Assembly (NCBI RefSeq): GCF_045679555.1
Contig: NC_092115.1
Coordinates: 32,863,596 to 32,927,595, forward strand
DNA length: 64,000 bases
Direction: 5' to 3'
Source of the DNA: Salvelinus alpinus
Lineage: Eukaryota > Chordata > Actinopteri > Salmoniformes > Salmonidae
Of this stretch, positions 3,117 to 60,917 are shown piece by piece (the first letter of the stretch is position 1; the number at the start of each line of letters is the position of its first letter). Under the pieces are notes generated by a model that was not told the DNA's origin, did no database searches, and saw nothing but the letters and a program-made list of their open reading frames with translations. A program made the position numbers and the translations under genes.

Positions 3117-4135
3117 TTAATATTTGGTACAGAAACCTTTGTTTGCAATTACAGAGATCATATGTTTCCTGTAGTTCTTGACCAGGTTTGCACACACTGC
3201 AGCAGGGATTTTGGCCCACTCCTCCATACAGACCTTCTCCATATCCTTCAGGTTTCGGGGCTGTCGCTGGGCAATACGGACTTTCAGCTCCCTCCAAAGA
3301 TATTCTATTGGGTTCAGGTCTGGAGACTGGCTAGGCCACTCCAGGACCTTGAGATGCTTCTTACGGAGCCACTCCTTAGTTGCCCTGGCTGTGTGTTTCG
3401 GATCGTTGTCATGCTGGAAGACCCAGCCACGACCCATGTTCAATGCTCTTACGGAAGGAGGTTGTTGGCCAAGATCTTGCGATACATGGCCCCATCCATC
3501 CTCCCCTCAATACGGTGCAGTCGTCCTGTCCCCTTTGCAGAAAACCATCCCCAGAGAATGATGTTTCCACCTCCATGCTTCACGGTTGGAATGGTGTTCT
3601 TGGGGTTGTACTCATCCTTCTTCTTCCTCCAAACACGGCGAGTGGCGTTTAGACAAAAAAGCTGTATTTTTGTCTCATCAGACCACATGACCTTCTCCCG
3701 TTCCTCCTCTGGATCATCCAGATGGTCATTGGCAAACTTCAGACGGGCCTGGACATGCGCTGGCTTGAGCAGGGGGACCTTGCGCGCGCTGCAGGATTTG
3801 AATCCATGACGGCGTAGTGTGTTACTAATGGTTTTCTTTGAGACTGTGGTCCCAGCTCTCTTCAGGTCATTGACCAGGTTCTGCCGTGTAGTTCTGGGCT
3901 GATCCCTCACCTTCCTCATGATCATTGATGCCCCACGAGGTGAGATCTTGCCTGGAGCCCCAGACCGTGGGTGATTGACCGTCATCTTGAACTTCTTCCA
4001 TTTTCTAATAATTGCGCCAACAGTTGTTGCCTTCTCACCAAGCTGCTTGCCTATTGTCCTGTAGCCCATCCCAGCCTTGTGCAGGTCTACAATTTTATCC
4101 CTGATGTCCTTACACAGCTCTCTGGTCTTGGCCAT
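3117..4135 (-). pseudogene. Tc1-type transposase, one frameshift
   Basis: Minus-strand DDE transposase of a Tc1/mariner element. It starts [20 protein letters not shown] with a paired helix-turn-helix DNA-binding region, then a GRPR-like basic stretch ([14 protein letters not shown]). The catalytic signatures are [10 protein letters not shown] (first Asp), [10 protein letters not shown] (second Asp) and [11 protein letters not shown] (third acidic residue, Glu). 4135-3449 is one open frame of 228 codons and 3443-3117 is the remainder in another frame. The break near 3445-3455 looks like loss of about four bases in LPSVRAL. Apart from that the protein is full length (about 340 residues), so this copy is fairly young. 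Not functional as it stands. Confidence 0.88.
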
Positions 4136-4218: not shown

Positions 4219-5217
4219 CTTCTCTGCGCTACGGATCCCTTCTACGGGATCATTTTCCTAAACAACCGCTGAATTGCAGGGCGCAAAATATTACTAAAAA
4301 TATTTATAATCATGCAATCACAAGTGAAATATACCAAAACACAGCTTAGCTTGTTGTTAATCCACCTATCATGTCAGATTTTGAAAATATGCTTTACAGA
4401 GAAAGAAATCCAAGCTTTTGTGAGTGTATCAATCCATGCTAGAACAGCTAGCCCCAAATTAGCATGGTCACGAAAGTCAGAAAGCAATAAAATTAGTCGC
4501 TTACCTTTGATAATCTTCGGATGTTTGCACTCATGAGACTCCCAGTTACACAACAAATGTTCTTTTTGTTCAATAAATATTACTTTTATAACAAAAAAAC
4601 GCCATTTGGGTTGCGCGTTATGTTCAGAAAACCAAAGCCTCGTTCCGTTCGACGAAAATTCCAAAAAGTATCCTTAATGGTCGTAGAAACATGTCAAATG
4701 TTTTTTATAATCAATCCTCAGGTTGTTTTTAACAAACATAATCGATAATATTTCAACCGGACCGTAACCTATTCAATAAGAGAGAAAAAGAAAATGGAGA
4801 GCTACCCTCTCGCGCGCAGGAACTAGTCAGAGGACACCTGACTACTTTTGAAAAATCTCACTAATTTTTCAAAATAAAAGCCTGAAACTATGTCTAAAGC
4901 CATTGGAAAAGGAATCTGGTTGATACCCCTTTAAATGGAAGAAAGACAGGCCAGGAAACCCAGATAATAAAAAATAAAAAAAATCACTTCCGGGTTAGAT
5001 TATCTCAGGTTTTCGCCTGCAGAATCAGTTTTGTTATACTCACAGACAATATTTTGACAGTTTTGGAAACTTTGGAGTGTTTTCTATCCTAATCTGTAAA
5101 TTATATGCATATTCTACGATCTGGACCTGAGAAATAGTCCTTTTACCTTGGAAGCGTTATTTAACAAAAATTACAACAACAAAAAATATATATAATCTGA
5201 CCCCTAGCGTCAAGAGG
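4219..5217 (+). mobile_element. TTAA-site non-autonomous DNA transposon, copy 2
   Basis: A 999-bp insert in the Tc1 element 2939-5505, flanked by TTAA at 4215-4218 and 5218-5221. Its ends read CTTCTCTGCGCTACGG and, inverted at the right, CCTCTTGACGCTAGGG, giving imperfect terminal inverted repeats of about 16 bp. Same family as 737-1737 and 27013-28467. No coding capacity was recognised. The superfamily could be piggyBac or Kolobok. Confidence 0.82.
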
Positions 5218-13878: not shown

Positions 13879-32356
<18,478 letters not shown>

Positions 32357-33256: not shown

Positions 33257-34168
33257 TCACCGTCTAGCCCCACCCGTGGTCCCCAAAAACGAGGAGTTGT
33301 GATTGGGAAGCTGCTTGAAGAAATCTCTCAGGCCAGTGAGCTCACTGGTTAGTTGATCGATTGTTTTGTGTAATCTGTCATTCTCTGAACCCAGTTCAAG
33401 CATTTTTTGCTGCATTTCCACGTTGCGTTGCTTTGCTTTGTCCCTACTTTTCCTCACTGCAACGTTATTCCTCTCACGTCTCTGGCGGTACTCTTGGCTG
33501 TACCTGTCAAAATTCTTTTTCCCTTTCTCCTTGCCGACCTTCCGAGGAGAGGAGTGGGCTGATTGGCTTGAGAGAGGCTCTGGGGTTGATGGTGGCGTTG
33601 GTTGTCCCATGGGAAGGCTCACGGAGGTCTGCGCGCAGTTTTTGATCTGGGAAGGTAACGACGAGGACATGTCATTGTCGCTCCAGTCCGATTCCTGTTT
33701 GATCGGTGCACTGAAGACCCCCTTGTCAAATCCACCCTTGAGCTTCCTCTCGAACTCTTTTTGGCTTCCAACTGCGTATGCGTTGGTTGAACAGTTTGAC
33801 AGCTGCTGCATATTGCTGGACGACGTAGTCGAGCTTGGCATGTAGAAGTCTGTCTTCTCTTGCTTCACAGTGTTGAATAAGTCAAGGAAAAGTTCATCGT
33901 TGCAGAGTTCCAGGTGTGGTACTGCTGTCATCGACTCTATGTAGGAGCTGAAGTCGATGGCACTCTCGTCGTCGTACATTGCAGGGGCTGTGTTCAGCTC
34001 GGCCATGGTTGTGTCCTCGCCCGTGCCATGATCACTTCTCCCGGGTTTGCAGACCCCCTGAAGACCCCTGCTCAGCTTATTGTCGTAGAAGTTTGTAGGC
34101 TCCATCGCCCAACTCATGTTGCATTGTGGAGACACGCACTGAGAATCCAGGCTGTATATATCACACAT
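33257..34168 (-). CDS. cebpd: C/EBP delta, bZIP transcription factor
   Basis: An unbroken single exon of 303 codons on the minus strand, stop TGA at 33257-33259; C/EBP genes are typically intronless. The C-terminal bZIP has a basic region at about residues 222-248 ([20 protein letters not shown]) and a leucine zipper at about 250-285 ([20 protein letters not shown]). The N-terminal activation part carries the family motif [16 protein letters not shown] (65-80) followed by [12 protein letters not shown] (87-98). VKQE (101-104) and IKQE (156-159) fit the SUMO-acceptor consensus. C/EBP delta binds CCAAT-like sites as a dimer in the nucleus and acts in acute-phase response and adipocyte differentiation. 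Length agrees with vertebrate CEBPD (about 270-300). The match to DESAIDFS and the position beside spidr favour delta over beta. Confidence 0.93.
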
Positions 34169-34418
34169 GAACTCTGCTTTCTGCCCTCGTGGGATCGGAC
34201 GTCAATAGATTTCGTTACTTAGTAGCCAGGTAGTTGGAACAAGCTTGATACAATGTATCACGCTCACTGTATTACTGGAGCTTCTTCTTCCCTTTCCCCA
34301 ACGTTGCTTCTTTTAAGTGGTGTTTAGGTTTATTCTAAAATAGTGGCGGTATATTAAGGTCTGTAACTTCTCTGAAGTCTCTGTATTTCGCGGAGTGTAT
34401 TTTGTATCTTTCCTCTGC

Positions 34419-35576: not shown

Positions 35577-36737
35577 TTTTTATTTATTTTTATTTCACCT
35601 TTATTTAACCAGGGGCCTGTTGCACAAAACTAGGATAAGGGATTAAGCCAGGATATCTTGGTGATCCTGGCTCAATTGATCCGTAATCCGGTTGCACTAA
35701 AGATGGATAGGGGGCAGGAGGATATGTTATGGTATAAATTACCATGGAGATTTATTCTGTGGAGCTAGCCTGCTCCAGACCAGGCTAAATTCCAGGATCT
35801 ATTTAATCTCATCCCTAATGTCAGTCAGCAGTCACCACAAATGGAAACCAATAGTTATTTCACTGCTCACTATACATTGTTATCACATATAACTAGACCC
35901 ACTGTTATTATTTAAACGTTTGTGATCATTCATTTCAATGATTTTGGATAAAAAATGATTTTTAGATGATGTTGCTATCATTAGATAATTTACAGTTTCC
36001 CATAGACTATAAGGCTATATATAAAATGATAGAATATTAGGGCCACAGAGGGGAAAAAAACACAAGTCATAATATTGTAACCAGTTGTTTTAAAGGAGGA
36101 CAGTTGTTAAAATGACAGATGTGGGGCATTTCGTGAAATTGTACTTCAGTATGGTTTCATAAACAAAGACATGCTGATGTGCCAGAATATTAAGTATCAC
36201 ATTGTCATAAGTATCAAAACTGTAAAAACAATATGTAGCTTTTCTGCAGAAAGAACCAGCCTCATAAATTTATGACTTTATCCTTTTTCTTCAGTGTGGC
36301 CCTAGTACTCTGTCATATAAACAAATACACATTCCATATGAATATAAAAACACAATGTGTAACATTATGTTCCTTTATTGAATAAGGACAAAACAAAGCA
36401 GGTAAACCATCAGCTCCTTTCGAAACTGAAGTCACAGTGACTCTACAAGATGGAAAGCACAGAATCCAAGCATATTATACAAAATGATACATACACATTC
36501 AAAGGTCTGTATATAACACACCCTGCATGTCTGCACACTAAAATAAATGCAGGACAAATCCATACACATCAACTGAACAGACAAATGAATGGATGCAGTA
36601 GCCTCCCTGCAGCCTTGTATTACACACAGTATACCGCACAAACATCATAAGAGGCCAAATTCGTCAAACGAACCCAAAAAAAACCAAATTCCTCTGCCAC
36701 CGCAGGACATATTTAACCAAAATTGAAAGCACACATA

Positions 36738-38065
36738 CTAACTAAAATAATTCAACACATATTGGTCCCTCAGCAGCCGACCACTGTCGTCATCAGGGAA
36801 GATTGCCGGATTGTCCCAGTCCATGGCTGGTGGCACTCTGGGGGCCCTCTCCTTCCTCAGGCAGGCCACATTGTGGAGGACAGCACAAGCCACAGTAATA
36901 TCACATGCCCTAACAGGGCTGACCCTTAATTTGTGAAGGCAGTGAAAGCGTGCCTTCAGGAGGCCAAAGGTCATTTCAACTCTGGCCCTGGTCCTGGCAT
37001 GGGCATGGTTGTAGGCCTGCTGTGCTTCCTGGGGGTCTGTGAAAGGTGTCAGGAGAAAAGGCTGGCAGCCATACCCCCTGTCTCCCAGCAACACACCAGA
37101 GAATTCACCTGTCAACACAAAATCTCATCATTACTACCTCATAAACACAGTGATATTCTTGACACAGCCATGATGGTTATAAATAGGGGTTGTGTGGCTT
37201 ACCTTGTGATAGGCACTGATAGATTTCAGAGGCCCGAAAGATTCTGGAGTCATGGACTGAGCCAGGCCATTTTGCCACAACATTGCTGATCACACAGTCA
37301 GCATTGCAGACCATCTGAAATCATAAGATGAGGAATATTACACCAATCAATGCACATCACTGGCAATGCAGAGTGTTCGTCAATGGACAATATCAAAAAG
37401 TTATGTTCACCTGAACATTAATGCTGTGAAAGGATTTCCTATTCACAAAATCGGCCTCATGGGCACCTGAGGGGGCTTTTATCCTTGTGTGTGCAGTCCA
37501 CTGCACCAATGACATTGGGGAAACCTGTCACACAAAGTAATGAGTATCCTACTATGTGTTAACAGTTGTCCTGTAATTTGTAGATCCTCTTACCTGCAAT
37601 CCTATAGAACTCCTCTTTGATGTCACAGAGTCTTCTGTGGCCAGGGAAGGAGATGAAGACATCTGCTAATGCTTTGATAGCCAGACACACACTCCTTATT
37701 GTGCGGCAAATTGTGGCCTTGTTCAGCTGTTCTGCATCCCCCACTGAGTACAGGAAGGCTCCACTAGCAAAAAAGCGCAAGGCCACACAAACCATTTGCT
37801 CCACACTCAGTGCATGGCTCCGTGCAGTGCGGTGCTTAATCCTGGGACCCAGTAGTCTGCATAGATACCTGATGCCATCTGCAGAAAACCTGTATCTTTC
37901 ATATAGATGGTCATCAGGGAAGGCCAGTGGGTCCAACCGGTCCCTGAAGACCCTTTCTCGCCTGAAGGCTCTCCTCAGCACAAGTGCTTCTTCATCCACC
38001 ACATCTCGCACGAATGGGCATGCCATTGTCAGAGCAGAAAGGAACACACAATTTTGGGCCTTCAT
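36738..38065 (-). pseudogene. HARBI1-type Harbinger nuclease, copy A, one frameshift
   Basis: Exons on the minus strand: 38065-37594, 37524-37411, 37314-37203, 37108-36738. Exon 1 starts MKAQNCVFLSALTMACPFVR and carries the HTH-like region (SHALSVEQMVCVALRFFASG). Exon 2 begins FPNVIGAVDCTH with the first catalytic Asp. Exon 3 has PGSVHDSRIF (second Asp). Exon 4 has GDRGYGCQPF and RARVEMTFGLLK (the Glu). Exon 2 is 114 nt where 116 are needed; two bases are missing in the Cys-Thr-His-(Ile-Arg) stretch (GCACACACAAGG). Without that the protein would be about 356 residues, close to HARBI1 (349). It cannot make an active nuclease as spliced here. Confidence 0.85.
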
Positions 38066-38246
38066 ATAGGCTAGTGGCCACACCTGGTGCTGGGGGGGTG
38101 GGCAAAAGAGGGCGATGCCTTATAACGATGACTTGGTTGTACTGATTGCTGGGAAAATAAAAAAAACCTTAGAAAGATGCCACCGTCCTGTGTGCTCACA
38201 ATAAGAGCTCATATGTCATGGCTCACTTGACTTTACGAGAATATAC

Positions 38247-39386
38247 CTAATTTTTATTTTGAGCTGTGTCATCTTCTTGGAGCTGGGGGAGGAAAGAAAA
38301 ATAATGATTAATACATTTGTGTTACAGTTAGCATACAGTGTACATTGAAGGCATATCTCACCTCCCTCTCAAGTTTTTTTATTTCAAGGTCCAGTTTCCT
38401 AATTGTCCTCTTTTTTATTTCGGACTCCAGTGCAAGATTTTCCATCTTTTTCTTCTTGTACTGAATGTCTATGTCTGCCAGTTCTATTTGGCGCCGGAGG
38501 TGGTTGCCATACAACTTTCTGATAGCTTGTGAGCTCTGTGAACACAATACAATTAGCGCAGCTGGAATTTGGCAGGATGTGGTGTCCTTTTATTAATACG
38601 CACTATGTTGCCAGGCTGGTTTTCCCACTGTATAGCATCTGGGTCCTGTAAAAGAAATTAGATTTTTTGATTTTGATGAGGACTCCTCACCATTGTAGAG
38701 TAAATAGTACTTTCACAGTCTTAACATGATACCTCATGCCTTCTGGAATCCAGAGAGATGGTCTCCTCCTCATCATCGTCTCCATCATGTGCTGTTGCTG
38801 CTGCACTGGGGCCTTCACCCTATCACATTTAATCGGATTCATATTGAAGCTAGTAGACAAGACATGCCAGGCCTACAGTATGCCTTTGATGGAGTACTCA
38901 CTGGATCAGCATCGTCTGGTGCTTGTGCTGGTGGCTCTAACAGGAACACAGTGCTGCCAGACACTGCAAGGCAATAGGTAAACCAAAGTCAGACAGTCCA
39001 AATTGATTCAATATGAATGTGGTTGTATCCCATGTAGAGATGGAAGGACATACCTTGAATGAAGCGGGTGGCATCTTGGGAGGAACCTATGCTCGTCTCT
39101 TTCCCCCCAGGGATCCCCTCTAAGACGGGCCTGCCTTTATTTAGCTCCAAGGCCATGTCCTCTGCTGGGGTAAGGTCAGCCTTTGGTGACCCACCACCCG
39201 TGCCTTGTCTGTGGGTATTCTTTTTCACTGCTAAAACAGTACAGACAATGTGTGAGCAGGCACCTTCTGGGTACAATATATGCTTGTGCTTTGTTAAATA
39301 TTAGTCAGGGACCATACCATTCTGCAGAATGTTCTTGTATTTGATTTTGACCTGCTGCCATGTCCGTTTTGGCCCGTTCATGTTTA

Positions 39387-39428
<42 letters not shown>

Positions 39429-39847
39429 TTAATGGAGTCACACTGCAAAAAATTACTTGGTATTTTTGTCTTGTTTTCAGTAAAAATATCAAAAAATTTA
39501 TCATAGCTTTATACAGTGTGATGGAGTTACTTTACACAATTTCACTCATATCTGCAGTGCATTTCAATTAAAAATTTAACCGTTTCATAATTACAGTACA
39601 ACTGCATTTTTGGAGATGTGAATTAAATATTTGAATTGTAATTGTGATGTTTCAGCGGAGCGGTGAGTGTGTAATTGTGCACTACTTACGCATTCAAGCG
39701 GTCTGCAATACTTTGCCACGCTTTTTCTCTTTGCTTTATCACTGTGGCGGTGTTGCCTTTCTTCTTAATTATATCTTTTACCTCCTCGTATGCCTCCATG
39801 AGGATTTGTGCTTCCGACGGGGAAAAGTACGCGGCTCTAGTTGCCAT
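38247..39847 (-). CDS. Harbinger Myb/SANT-like DNA-binding protein, copy A, intact
   Basis: Eight exons on the minus strand with GT/AG borders and matching phases: 39847-39690, 39388-39318, 39230-39054, 38963-38902, 38819-38733, 38645-38604, 38535-38362, 38282-38247. They total 807 nt, 268 residues plus stop. Residues 1-76 form a Myb/SANT-like trihelix domain (start MATRAAYFSPSEAQILMEAY, then EKAWQSIADRLNALNMNGPK and RTWQQVKIKYKNILQN). An acidic stretch DDDEEE follows near residue 172. Residues 200-257 form a charged coiled coil (RRQIELADIDIQYKKKKMEN). In known Harbinger elements this partner carries the nuclease to the nucleus and to the element ends. No break was seen, so it could still be made. 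Confidence 0.85.
39390..39427 (+). repeat. (CA)n run in a Harbinger intron
   Basis: About 18 CA units at the end of the first intron of the Myb-like gene in copy A, next to the acceptor of its second exon. Absent from copy B because of the deletion there. Confidence 0.85.
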
Positions 39848-40074
39848 GGTAAATCAGTTAATCTGTGATCTGTGGCGGGGTCTATTTGAGTGAGCCGTGA
39901 GCGCGCACCTATCCAGGATTGGTTTCACCTGGCTTAATGAATCCGTGTCTGCTCATCCTGGCTTGGTCTTTGTGCAACCAATTAAGCCTGGACGCACATG
40001 TTTTGGCTTCATTGAGCTCAGCTGAGTCATTTATCCCGGATGTCTTAATTCTACTTTTGTGCAACAGGCCCCAG

Positions 40075-40114
40075 GTCGCAATTGTAAATGAGAACGTGTT
40101 CTCAATTTGCCTAC
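40075..40114 (-). repeat. 40-bp spacer between the Harbinger copies, inverted
   Basis: It begins GTCGCAATTGTAAATGAGAA and ends CTCAATTTGCCTAC. The inverse joins cleanly to the outer flanks (TTTAACCAG before, CTGGCCAAG after) as the uninterrupted host repeat. So the spacer is flipped relative to both flanks. Confidence 0.85.
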
Positions 40115-40158
40115 CTGGGGCCTGTTGCACAAAAGTAGAATCCGATTAAATGTGATAG

Positions 40159-40731
40159 GGTGAAGGCCCCAGTGCAGCAGCAACAGCACATGATGGAGAC
40201 GATGATGAGGAGGAGACCATCTCTCTGGATTCCAGAAGGCATGAGGTATCATGTTAAGACTGTGAAAGTACTATTTACTCTACAATGGTGAGGAGTCCTC
40301 ATCAAAATCAAAAAATCTAATTTCTTTTACAGGACCCAGATGCTATACAGTGGGAAAACCAGCCTGGCAACATAGTGCGTATTAATAAAAGGACACCACA
40401 TCCTGCCAAATTCCAGCTGCGCTAATTGTATTGTGTTCACAGAGCTCACAAGCTATCAGAAAGTTGTATGGCAACCACCTCCGGCGCCAAATAGAACTGG
40501 CAGACATAGACATTCAGTACAAGAAGAAAAAGATGGAAAATCTTGCACTGGAGTCCGAAATAAAAAAGAGGACAATTAGGAAACTGGACCTTGAAATAAA
40601 AAAACTTGAGAGGGAGGTGAGATATGCCTTCAATGTACACTGTATGCTAACTGTAACACAAATGTATTAATCATTATTTTTCTTTCCTCCCCCAGCTCCA
40701 AGAAGATGACACAGCTCAAAATAAAAATTAG
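40159..40731 (+). pseudogene. Harbinger Myb-like gene remnant, copy B (last four exons)
   Basis: Exons 40159-40245, 40333-40374, 40443-40616 and 40696-40731 correspond to exons 5-8 of the copy A gene. The DNA-binding exons are deleted. What remains is the acidic segment and the coiled coil (SSQAIRKLYGNHLRRQIELA). Confidence 0.85.
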
Positions 40732-40912
40732 GTATATTCTCGTAAAGTCAAGTGAGCCATGACATATGAGCTCTTATTGTGAGCACACAGGACGGTGGCA
40801 TCTTTCTAAGGTTTTTTTTATTTTCCCAGCAATCAGTACAACCAAGTCATCGTTATAAGGCATCGCCCTCTTTTGCCCACCCCCCCAGCACCAGGTGTGG
40901 CCACTAGCCTAT

Positions 40913-42240
40913 ATGAAGGCCCAAAATTGTGTGTTCCTTTCTGCTCTGACAATGGCATGCCCATTCGTGCGAGATGTGGTGGATGAAGAAGCACTTGTGC
41001 TGAGGAGAGCCTTCAGGCGAGAAAGGGTCTTCAGGGACCGGTTGGACCCACTGGCCTTCCCTGATGACCATCTATATGAAAGATACAGGTTTTCTGCAGA
41101 TGGCATCAGGTATCTATGCAGACTACTGGGTCCCAGGATTAAGCACCGCACTGCACGGAGCCATGCACTGAGTGTGGAGCAAATGGTTTGTGTGGCCTTG
41201 CGCTTTTTTGCTAGTGGAGCCTTCCTGTACTCAGTGGGGGATGCAGAACAGCTGAACAAGGCCACAATTTGCCGCACAATAAGGAGTGTGTGTCTGGCTA
41301 TCAAAGCATTAGCAGATGTCTTCATCTCCTTCCCTGGCCACAGAAGACTCTGTGACATCAAAGAGGAGTTCTATAGGATTGCAGGTAAGAGGATCTACAA
41401 ATTACAGGACAACTGTTAACACATAGTAGGATACTCATTACTTTGTGTGACAGGTTTCCCCAATGTCATTGGTGCAGTGGACTGCACACACAAGGATAAA
41501 AGCCCCCTCAGGTGCCCATGAGGCCGATTTTGTGAATAGGAAATCCTTTCACAGCATTAATGTTCAGGTGAACATAACTTTTTGATATTGTCCATTGACG
41601 AACACTCTGCATTGCCAGTGATGTGCATTGATTGGTGTAATATTCCTCATCTTATGATTTCAGATGGTCTGCAATGCTGACTGTGTGATCAGCAATGTTG
41701 TGGCAAAATGGCCTGGCTCAGTCCATGACTCCAGAATCTTTCGGGCCTCTGAAATCTATCAGTGCCTATCACAAGGTAAGCCACACAACCCCTATTTATA
41801 ACCATCATGGCTGTGTCAAGAATATCACTGTGTTTATGAGGTAGTAATGATGAGATTTTGTGTTGACAGGTGAATTCTCTGGTGTGTTGCTGGGAGACAG
41901 GGGGTATGGCTGCCAGCCTTTTCTCCTGACACCTTTCACAGACCCCCAGGAAGCACAGCAGGCCTACAACCATGCCCATGCCAGGACCAGGGCCAGAGTT
42001 GAAATGACCTTTGGCCTCCTGAAGGCACGCTTTCACTGCCTTCACAAATTAAGGGTCAGCCCTGTTAGGGCATGTGATATTACTGTGGCTTGTGCTGTCC
42101 TCCACAATGTGGCCTGCCTGAGGAAGGAGAGGGCCCCCAGAGTGCCACCAGCCATGGACTGGGACAATCCGGCAATCTTCCCTGATGACGACAGTGGCCG
42201 GCTGCTGAGGGACCAATATGTGTTGAATTATTTTAGTTAG
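40913..42240 (+). pseudogene. HARBI1-type Harbinger nuclease, copy B, same frameshift as copy A
   Basis: Exons 40913-41384, 41454-41567, 41664-41775 and 41870-42240. The protein segments are identical to copy A wherever compared (exon 1 and exon 4 frames). The two-base loss in exon 2 is the same, so the defect predates the separation of the copies or was spread by gene conversion. Confidence 0.85.
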
Positions 42241-43610
42241 TATGTGTGCTTTCAATTTTGGTTAAATATGTCCTGCGGTGGCAGAGGAATTTGGGTTTTT
42301 TTGGGTTCGTTTTTTGACGAATTTGGCCTCTTATGATGTTTGTGCGGTATACTGTGTGTAATACAAGGCTGCAGGGAGGCTACTGCATCCATTCATTTGT
42401 CTGTTCAGTTGATGTGTATGGATTTGTCCTGCATTTATTTTAGTGTGCAGACATGCAGGGTGTGTTATATACAGACCTTTGAATGTGTATGTATCATTTT
42501 GTATAATATGCTTGGATTCTGTGCTTTCCATCTTGTAGAGTCACTGTGACTTCAGTTTCGAAAGGAGCTGATGGTTTACCTGCTTTGTTTTGTCCTTATT
42601 CAATAAAGGAACATAATGTTACACATTGTGTTTTTATATTCATATGGAATGTGTATTTGTTTATATGACAGAGTACTAGGGCCACACTGAAGAAAAAGGA
42701 TAAAGTCATAAATTTATGAGGCTGGTTCTTTCTGCAGAAAAGCTACATATTGTTTTTACAGTTTTGATACTTATGACAATGTGATACTTAATATTCTGGC
42801 ACATCAGCATGTCTTTGTTTATGAAACCATACTGAAGTACAATTTCACGAAATGCCCCACATCTGTCATTTTAACAACTGTCCTCCTTTAAAACAACTGG
42901 TTACAATATTATGACTTGTGTTTTTTTCCCCTCTGTGGCCCTAATATTCTATCATTTTATATATAGCCTTATAGTCTATGGGAAACTGTAAATTATCTAA
43001 TGATAGCAACATCTAAAAATCATTTTTTATCCAAAATCATTGAAATTAATGATCACAAACGTTTAAATAATAACAGTGGGTCTAGTTATATGTGATAACA
43101 ATGTATAGTGAGCAGTGAAATAACTATTGGTTTCCATTTGTGGTGACTGCTGACTGACATTAGGGATGAGATTAAATAGATCCTGGAATTTAGCCTGGTC
43201 TGGAGCAGGCTAGCTCCACAGAATAAATCTCCATGGTAATTTATACCATAACATATCCTCCTGCCCCCTATCCATCTTTAGTGCAACCGGATTACGGATC
43301 AATTGAGCCAGGATCACCAAGATATCCTGGCTTAATCCCTTATCCTAGTTTTGTGCAACAGGCCCCTGGCCAAGATAAAGCAAAGCAGTTCGATACATAC
43401 AACAACACATAGTTACACATGGAGTAAAACAAACATACAGTCAATAATACAGTGAAAAATAAGTCTATATACAATGTGAGCAAGTGAGGTGAGATAAGGG
43501 AGGTGAAGGCAAACAAAATATATATAAAAATAAATAAAAATATAAAAAGGCCATGGTGGCGAAGTAAATACAATATAGCAAGTAAAAAAATAATAAAAAA
43601 TAAAAAATAA

Positions 43611-44476: not shown

Positions 44477-60917
<16,441 letters not shown>

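Follow-up and report, generated by a model that had tools for sequence, protein, structure and literature searches.

Most work on gene conversion and inversion between inverted repeats has used yeast constructs or the large palindromes of sex chromosomes. We describe a palindrome formed by two facing copies (A and B) of a PIF/Harbinger-type transposon in Salvelinus alpinus, around a 40-bp centre of host repeat that lies inverted relative to both outer flanks. The pair is found in a 64,000-nt stretch (the window; positions 32863596-32927595 of contig NC_092115.1, hereafter C30), and all comparisons were made within one assembly of 2.37 Gb in 928 contigs.

Several described systems come close to this locus. 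At the human Y palindrome P6, conversion is described as far commoner than inversion (PMC3723533), and 11 of 16 analysable human inversions between inverted repeats carried signs of recurrence (PMC3961182). Our pairs share with these cases near-identical inverted arms, apparent multi-kilobase homogenisation and, here from locus to locus, occasional inversion of what lies between, but the arms are transposons of ~4.5 kb, 40-756 bp apart, with several young replicates in one genome. Template switching in yeast yields homogenised arms together with inverted spacers, the combination considered here, although there it involves short repeats in yeast genes (PMC8604942). Galileo inversions in Drosophila involve inverted copies of a DNA transposon with exchanged target duplications, as we see at a second locus (on contig C1), and for Galileo as for the C30 pair ectopic recombination and hybrid insertion are rival causes; copies are expected to be identical under hybrid insertion and chimeric under ectopic recombination (PMC2775673). 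In our case neighbouring copies enclose an inverted segment of very small size, and the family is too young for chimeric arms to be shown. Sister-chromatid or reversed-ends transposition of Ac/Ds and hybrid insertion of P elements would give the same structure in one step (PMC3744419), whereas here one of four scorable pairs is unflipped and the pooled arms are non-identical in their outer part. Among titles and abstract openings, a coverage that takes in few subscription journals, no case of a Harbinger palindrome with gene conversion between inverted copies was found.

The C30 pair and its inverted centre

The original prediction, made from the sequence of the window, described two near-identical Harbinger copies facing each other, mirrored over about 3.2 kb and each with its own CWG target duplication. 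We confirmed this observation to the base, copy A covering 35613-40071 and copy B 40118-43365. The duplication is CAG at copy A (35610-35612 and 40072-40074) and CTG at the reversed copy B (40115-40117 and 43366-43368). The inverted arms align over 2,175 + 701 + 363 nt at 99-100% identity, and besides a 1,211-nt deletion in B, A and B differ over 3.2 kb by three substitutions and two 3-nt indels. We call the element end that carries GGGCCTGTTGCACAAAACTAGGAT 'outer' and the end that carries GGGCCTGTTGCACAAAAGTAGAAT 'inner'; at C30 the inner ends face each other. The features of the pair are:

35596-35612, plus strand: left flank, host repeat (CACCTTTATTTAACCAG), ending in the target duplication CAG at site 1; the same flank is found at C24
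35613-40071, plus strand: full-length element of Harbinger type (copy A), with its outer terminal repeat on the left, its inner one on the right and its genes on the minus strand
36738-37124, minus strand: copy A transposase exon, C-terminal part of DDE_Tnp_4 (Pfam PF13359, E = 3.2e-16)
37485, no strand: 2-nt deletion common to A and B (A position 1873), a presumed frameshift in a transposase exon
37559-38119, minus strand: copy A upstream open reading frame (ORF), taken as the N-terminal transposase exon
39301-39847, minus strand: copy A Myb/SANT gene (PF13873), exons 1 and 2, approximate limits, intron placed by eye
40075-40114, minus strand: host-repeat centre, 40 bp, inverted relative to both outer flanks
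40118-43365, minus strand: copy B, inverted and internally deleted
40138-40145, no strand: B deletion junction (exact 28-nt junction pattern), 1,211 nt lost beside the inner terminal repeat
41854-42240, plus strand: copy B transposase exon (DDE_Tnp_4, PF13359, E = 3.2e-16), translation identical to that of A
43366-43512, plus strand: right flank, host repeat (CTGGCCAAGATAAAGC..) preceded by the target duplication CTG at site 2

The outer flanks at C30 are TTTAACCAG and CTGGCCAAG, and another copy of the host repeat matches the right flank at 80% over 43354-43512. Uninterrupted host repeats (TTTAACCAGGTAGGC, 20-32 bases, GCGACCTGGCCAAG) with GTAGGC..GCGAC inside gave 14,427 exact-pattern matches in the genome, whereas the flipped uninterrupted form gave none in the same genome. 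The repeat was therefore normal beforehand, and its centre was inverted when or after the two copies arrived. The flipped centre at 40075-40114 had thus been called exactly, and a flipped repeat free of any Harbinger copy, which the prediction had named as one finding that would overturn it if seen in an outgroup, was absent from this genome. That the host repeat already carried the flipped 40 bp before any insertion is conceivable as a sequence variant, the 40 bp holding a short imperfect palindrome, but exact patterns in this one genome match 14,427 normal uninterrupted copies and no flipped one, and we consider its probability negligible. The 40-bp variant of C30 is itself frequent in a listing of 100 of the 14,427 uninterrupted repeats. 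Viral contigs scanned for the host repeat gave no match.

On sequence grounds, A and B are classed as copies of a young PIF/Harbinger element that makes CWG target duplications, in line with the identity first proposed. Terminal inverted repeats (GGGCCTGTTGCACAAAA..) are present at all four ends, with CAG or CTG on both sides. The PF13359 match covers profile positions 77-158 of 158 in both copies; at E 0.01 the transposase exon had no match among solved structures, and the upstream frame of copy A matched no Pfam family. PF13873 (Myb_DNA-bind_5) matched the two joined exons of A at E = 4.4e-17 and exon 1 alone at 4.7e-11; B lacks this gene, removed by its deletion. Harbinger elements have been reported in salmonids (PMC9179366), and the NuwaI group of the PHIS superfamily comprises PIF/Harbinger-like elements with CWG target duplications (PMC4482050). 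The C30 element appears to fit this group in its duplications, and resembles it in a DDE_Tnp_4 transposase, a separate Myb/SANT gene, terminal inverted repeats and the 3-bp CWG duplication; no difference between the elements was shown, the exceptions within our family being CTA on both sides at C2:28.2 Mb and a CCG junction at C2:112.75. Divergence within the family averages 1.73 substitutions per kb (91 pairs of 14 copies) and is star-like. The 2-nt deletion was considered as private to the C30 arms, a reading we dropped since the allele is found at 12 genome places, 10 of them beyond these arms; an element lineage whose transposase is presumably frameshifted has thus spread, perhaps mobilised in trans.

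Spacers and arms at five inverted pairs

Four further close facing pairs were found, at C24, C6, C1 (61.6 Mb) and C2:41.2 Mb. Facing terminal repeats 26-50 bases apart occur at six places: C6, C24 and C30, each with a 40-bp spacer, and three sites within a C2 tandem array. A pattern search for facing terminal repeats with 0-30 bases between target triplets gave none. C24 has the same host flanks as C30 and a flipped spacer of different sequence. At C1, 756 nt (target triplets included) separate the copies, and the target duplications are exchanged, with CAG left and CTG right of copy A and CTG left and CAG right of copy B. The C1 spacer is reversed relative to the right flank by comparison with an uninterrupted copy in the window (80% and 72% identity):

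27052-28311, plus strand: uninterrupted copy of another host repeat, reference for the C1 spacer flip

The 262-nt spacer at C2:41.2 Mb is unflipped, flank, spacer and flank being collinear in a paralogous empty site at C12:33574000-33574905, and the target duplications there are ordinary. The spacer is thus flipped at three of four loci (C30, C24 and C1) and unflipped at C2:41.2 Mb, the C6 pair having no host flanks; these proportions are compatible with repeated flipping.

The C6 palindrome (C6:9636922-9645712; L015, L016) is not embedded in the host repeat, and each of its outer sides reads CTG. The paralogue C9:5158351-5158649 aligns at 67% with both flanks across the junction; as it reaches no more than 38 nt past that point, and the right flank is next matched ~9 kb away, this is a weak test of contiguity. 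This palindrome (copy, 40 bp of host repeat, copy) seems to have transposed as a unit, as a composite. Descent of C6 from C30, based on their identical 40 bp, was considered and dropped, since the variant is common both in the empty repeats listed and in single insertions.

We compared arms in an alignment of 20 copies (10 arms, 7 single copies and 3 array copies), counting changes within 12 nt of each other as one and masking positions 3226-3262, 3770-3830, 4276-4300 and 4455-4470 and indels >40 nt, with 1030-1075 also masked in a second run. With the five pairs pooled, the arms show 16 differences in the outer 1.4 kb and 2 in the inner part (6,963 and 14,009 aligned bases before masking), against 10 outer and 22 inner private variants in the seven single copies (Fisher p = 1e-4). 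Outer to inner differences were 5:0 at C30, 4:0 at C24, 1:0 at C6, 3:1 at C1 and 3:1 at C2:41.2. With C30, the locus at which the pattern first appeared, left out, the arm counts were 11:2 (Fisher p = 0.002), and leaving out any one locus gave p values from 0.0002 to 0.002. The outer part thus has 16 differences over 10 arms and 10 private variants over 7 single copies. In the outer 1.4 kb the pooled arms are about as distinct as separate copies (C6 less so), and across the inner ~3 kb the two arms of a pair resemble a single copy. This contrast suggests gene conversion from arm to arm. In an alignment of 28 copies, some variants occur in both arms of one pair and in none of the remaining 26 copies, namely at C6 (333, 713, 2446 and 2835), C24 (2551), C1 (3956) and C2:41.2 (2907); 3886 at C24 and 2547 at C1 are common to both arms and occur also in one or two other copies.

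The same pattern could reflect an assembly artefact, in which a real double insertion had its arms merged by the assembler or polisher, so that the inner homogeneity, and perhaps the flip, would be false. The homogeneous parts do lie far from unique flanks, and at C1 and C2:41.2, where both sides of the arms look unique, they lie mid-arm, for which reason we gave this explanation more weight and lowered that of arm-to-arm exchange. Against a merge, the arms retain their own deletions or single-nucleotide polymorphisms and resemble each other rather than the family consensus, and single copies retain private variants mid-element. A fold-back would yield mirrored flanks, but the observed ones differ; the flip and exchanged duplications at C1 would be hard to make by polishing. 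Overall we think an artefact distinctly unlikely.

The arm test left out partial copies (L029-L034), a direct pair at C1:17.69 Mb (positions only), four facing pairs 7.5-12.4 kb apart and one divergent pair on C2 (junctions only), the pair at C2:14.86 Mb and the direct array at C2:107.1 Mb. Wide facing pairs at C2:108.07, 108.90 and 113.93 Mb (L046-L053, L058-L061, L068-L073) have spacers of 7.5-12.4 kb and shared flanks. Two of them have in common a 2-kb flank, inverted and 99.0% identical, and two have in common 1.5 kb of spacer, oppositely oriented and 98.5% identical, with breaks at the element ends; this looks like element-bounded segmental duplication. The array (C2:107120398-107140675; L019-L021) consists of four direct tandem copies with ~45 bp of another host repeat between them and mismatched CTG/CAG target triplets inside. 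The pair at C2:14859651-14868228 (L041-L043) has its outer ends facing with almost nothing between them, one copy being without its outer part (some 350 bp).

Origin of the pair and of the flip

The original prediction derived the C30 structure from two insertions at neighbouring CCWGG sites of one repeat, followed by homologous recombination between the inverted copies, and raised the possibility of gene conversion. The neighbouring sites hold, but on the counts an independent arrival of the second copy by chance is unlikely. By exact junction patterns, which miss variant junctions so that these are lower bounds, site 1 is occupied in at least 11 repeats (outer end outward in 7, inner in 4) and site 2 in at least 12 (6 outer-outward, 6 inner); as elements lie both ways at both sites, we dropped the idea that the W of the site sets orientation. 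Two repeats (C30 and C24) are occupied at both sites where 0.009 would be expected under independence, and the arrival of the second copy was thus probably local or coupled. Spacing was counted from 100 of 800 exact inner ends (contig C1, and C2 to 129.6 of 131.0 Mb). Among these listed matches, facing inner-end neighbours within 1 kb numbered 2 against 0.01 expected, and pairs within 15 kb numbered 6 facing (the two closest included; 0.16 expected), 2 divergent (0.16) and 3 direct (0.32); segmental duplication links some of the more widely spaced pairs, which are therefore not all independent. It seems that new copies settle close to existing ones or originate jointly with them. We consider it very unlikely that A and B inserted independently by chance and never exchanged sequence, resembling each other only because the family is young; the low family divergence would allow for the likeness, but leaves the flip, the excess of doubles and the outer/inner contrast unexplained.

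The account that we favour, with moderate confidence, has a second copy arriving in inverted orientation, probably through local or coupled movement, and then an exchange between arms that flipped the spacer. We infer the following order. A CCWGG site in an older repeat of very high copy number would first have received a young PIF/Harbinger element. Another copy, whose move was probably local or coupled, would have taken the adjacent site, 40 bp off, in reverse orientation. As arms of a palindrome, the copies would then have recombined: non-crossover events would have transferred sequence between the arms, chiefly within the inner 3 kb, and a crossover, or a polymerase template switch, would have inverted the 40 bp. 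Finally, B would have lost 1.2 kb beside the centre, leaving an asymmetric palindrome. Recombination between the inverted copies, as originally proposed, is thus the best-supported cause of the flip, and the conversion suggested with it finds support in the arm comparison of the five pairs, although transposition in one step would also produce the flip.

In such a one-step birth, by hybrid-element insertion or sister-chromatid transposition, opposite ends on two sister chromatids would act together and insert at the neighbouring CCWGG site of the linked flank. By our own derivation, the product would read outer-E-inner, inverted spacer, inner-E-outer, with the observed duplications, identical arms and an obligatory flip. 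A single event would then account for the flip, the coupling seen in the excess of doubles and the likeness of the arms, and also for the excess of facing inner ends within 1 kb among the matches listed; such reactions have been described for P elements and Ac/Ds (PMC3744419, PMC2775673). However, C2:41.2 Mb is unflipped with ordinary target duplications, so that not every pair carries a flip, and the pooled outer arms differ about as much as single copies do, which makes arm conversion necessary in any case, though the youth and star-like shape of the family limit what this says on identity at birth. Titles and abstract openings, which cover few subscription journals, yielded no Harbinger case of alternative transposition. 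One-step birth was earlier our leading model and now stands second because of the unflipped C2:41.2 Mb pair and the outer/inner contrast; we judge it unlikely.

Several points weigh against the exchange between arms that we favour. The 1.4-kb boundary was picked after C30 had been seen, where the differences lie in the outer 1.2 kb, and with the variable stretch masked the test is weaker (11:2 vs 9:22, p = 0.001). C6 contributes only one outer difference. The inner differences (3885 and 4403) lie near the inner ends, which places the homogeneity at C1 and C2:41.2 mid-arm and not at the centre, and merging during polishing could give mid-arm homogeneity too. Variants shared by arms, other than the 2-nt deletion, were compared only among 28 copies; the 2-nt deletion in the C30 arms, a rare shared state, may have been inherited rather than converted. 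Three flipped pairs of four are too few to separate 50:50 flipping from births that are always flipped. The rarity of inversion at P6, albeit a far larger palindrome, is likewise a point against easy flipping.

Asymmetric loss near the centre is expected when a long palindrome breaks there. The 1,211 nt missing from B correspond to A 38837-40047, with a 4-nt ATTC microhomology, and the 28-nt junction has a single match in the genome, so B does not come from a deleted subfamily that spread. The right arm at C6 has its own deletion of ~165 nt adjoining its inner terminal repeat, and the C24 arms have no deletion beside the centre. Breakage of the palindrome may be the reason for the loss in B, though the two central deletions (C30 B and C6) prove nothing in this respect.

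Neighbourhood and significance

Outside the palindrome, an open reading frame at window positions 33257-34201 on the minus strand matches Pfam bZIP_2 (E = 2.8e-13), with its 5' edge ~1.4 kb from the palindrome; we take it to be C/EBP-like. An exon encoding an MCM P-loop lies at 57980-58465 on the plus strand (E = 1.8e-55). Speculatively, instability of the palindrome could matter for the nearby bZIP gene.

Neither the processes nor the parts described here are of a new kind; what makes the set of interest is the replication of young palindromes whose ancestral spacer orientation is known, together with the apparent move of C6 as a unit. We also considered a broader idea, which we regard as unlikely, that the neighbouring CCWGG sites of the abundant repeat act as a nursery in which palindromes with an obligatorily flipped 40-bp core would be born in one step through alternative transposition, evolve in concert and leave as new composites with host DNA aboard, as may have happened at C6. 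One young family provides natural replicates in one genome, with single copies as controls for arms of the same length, and the ancestral orientation of the spacer is known from thousands of empty repeats. With long-read population data, the rates of conversion, flipping and central deletion could become measurable.

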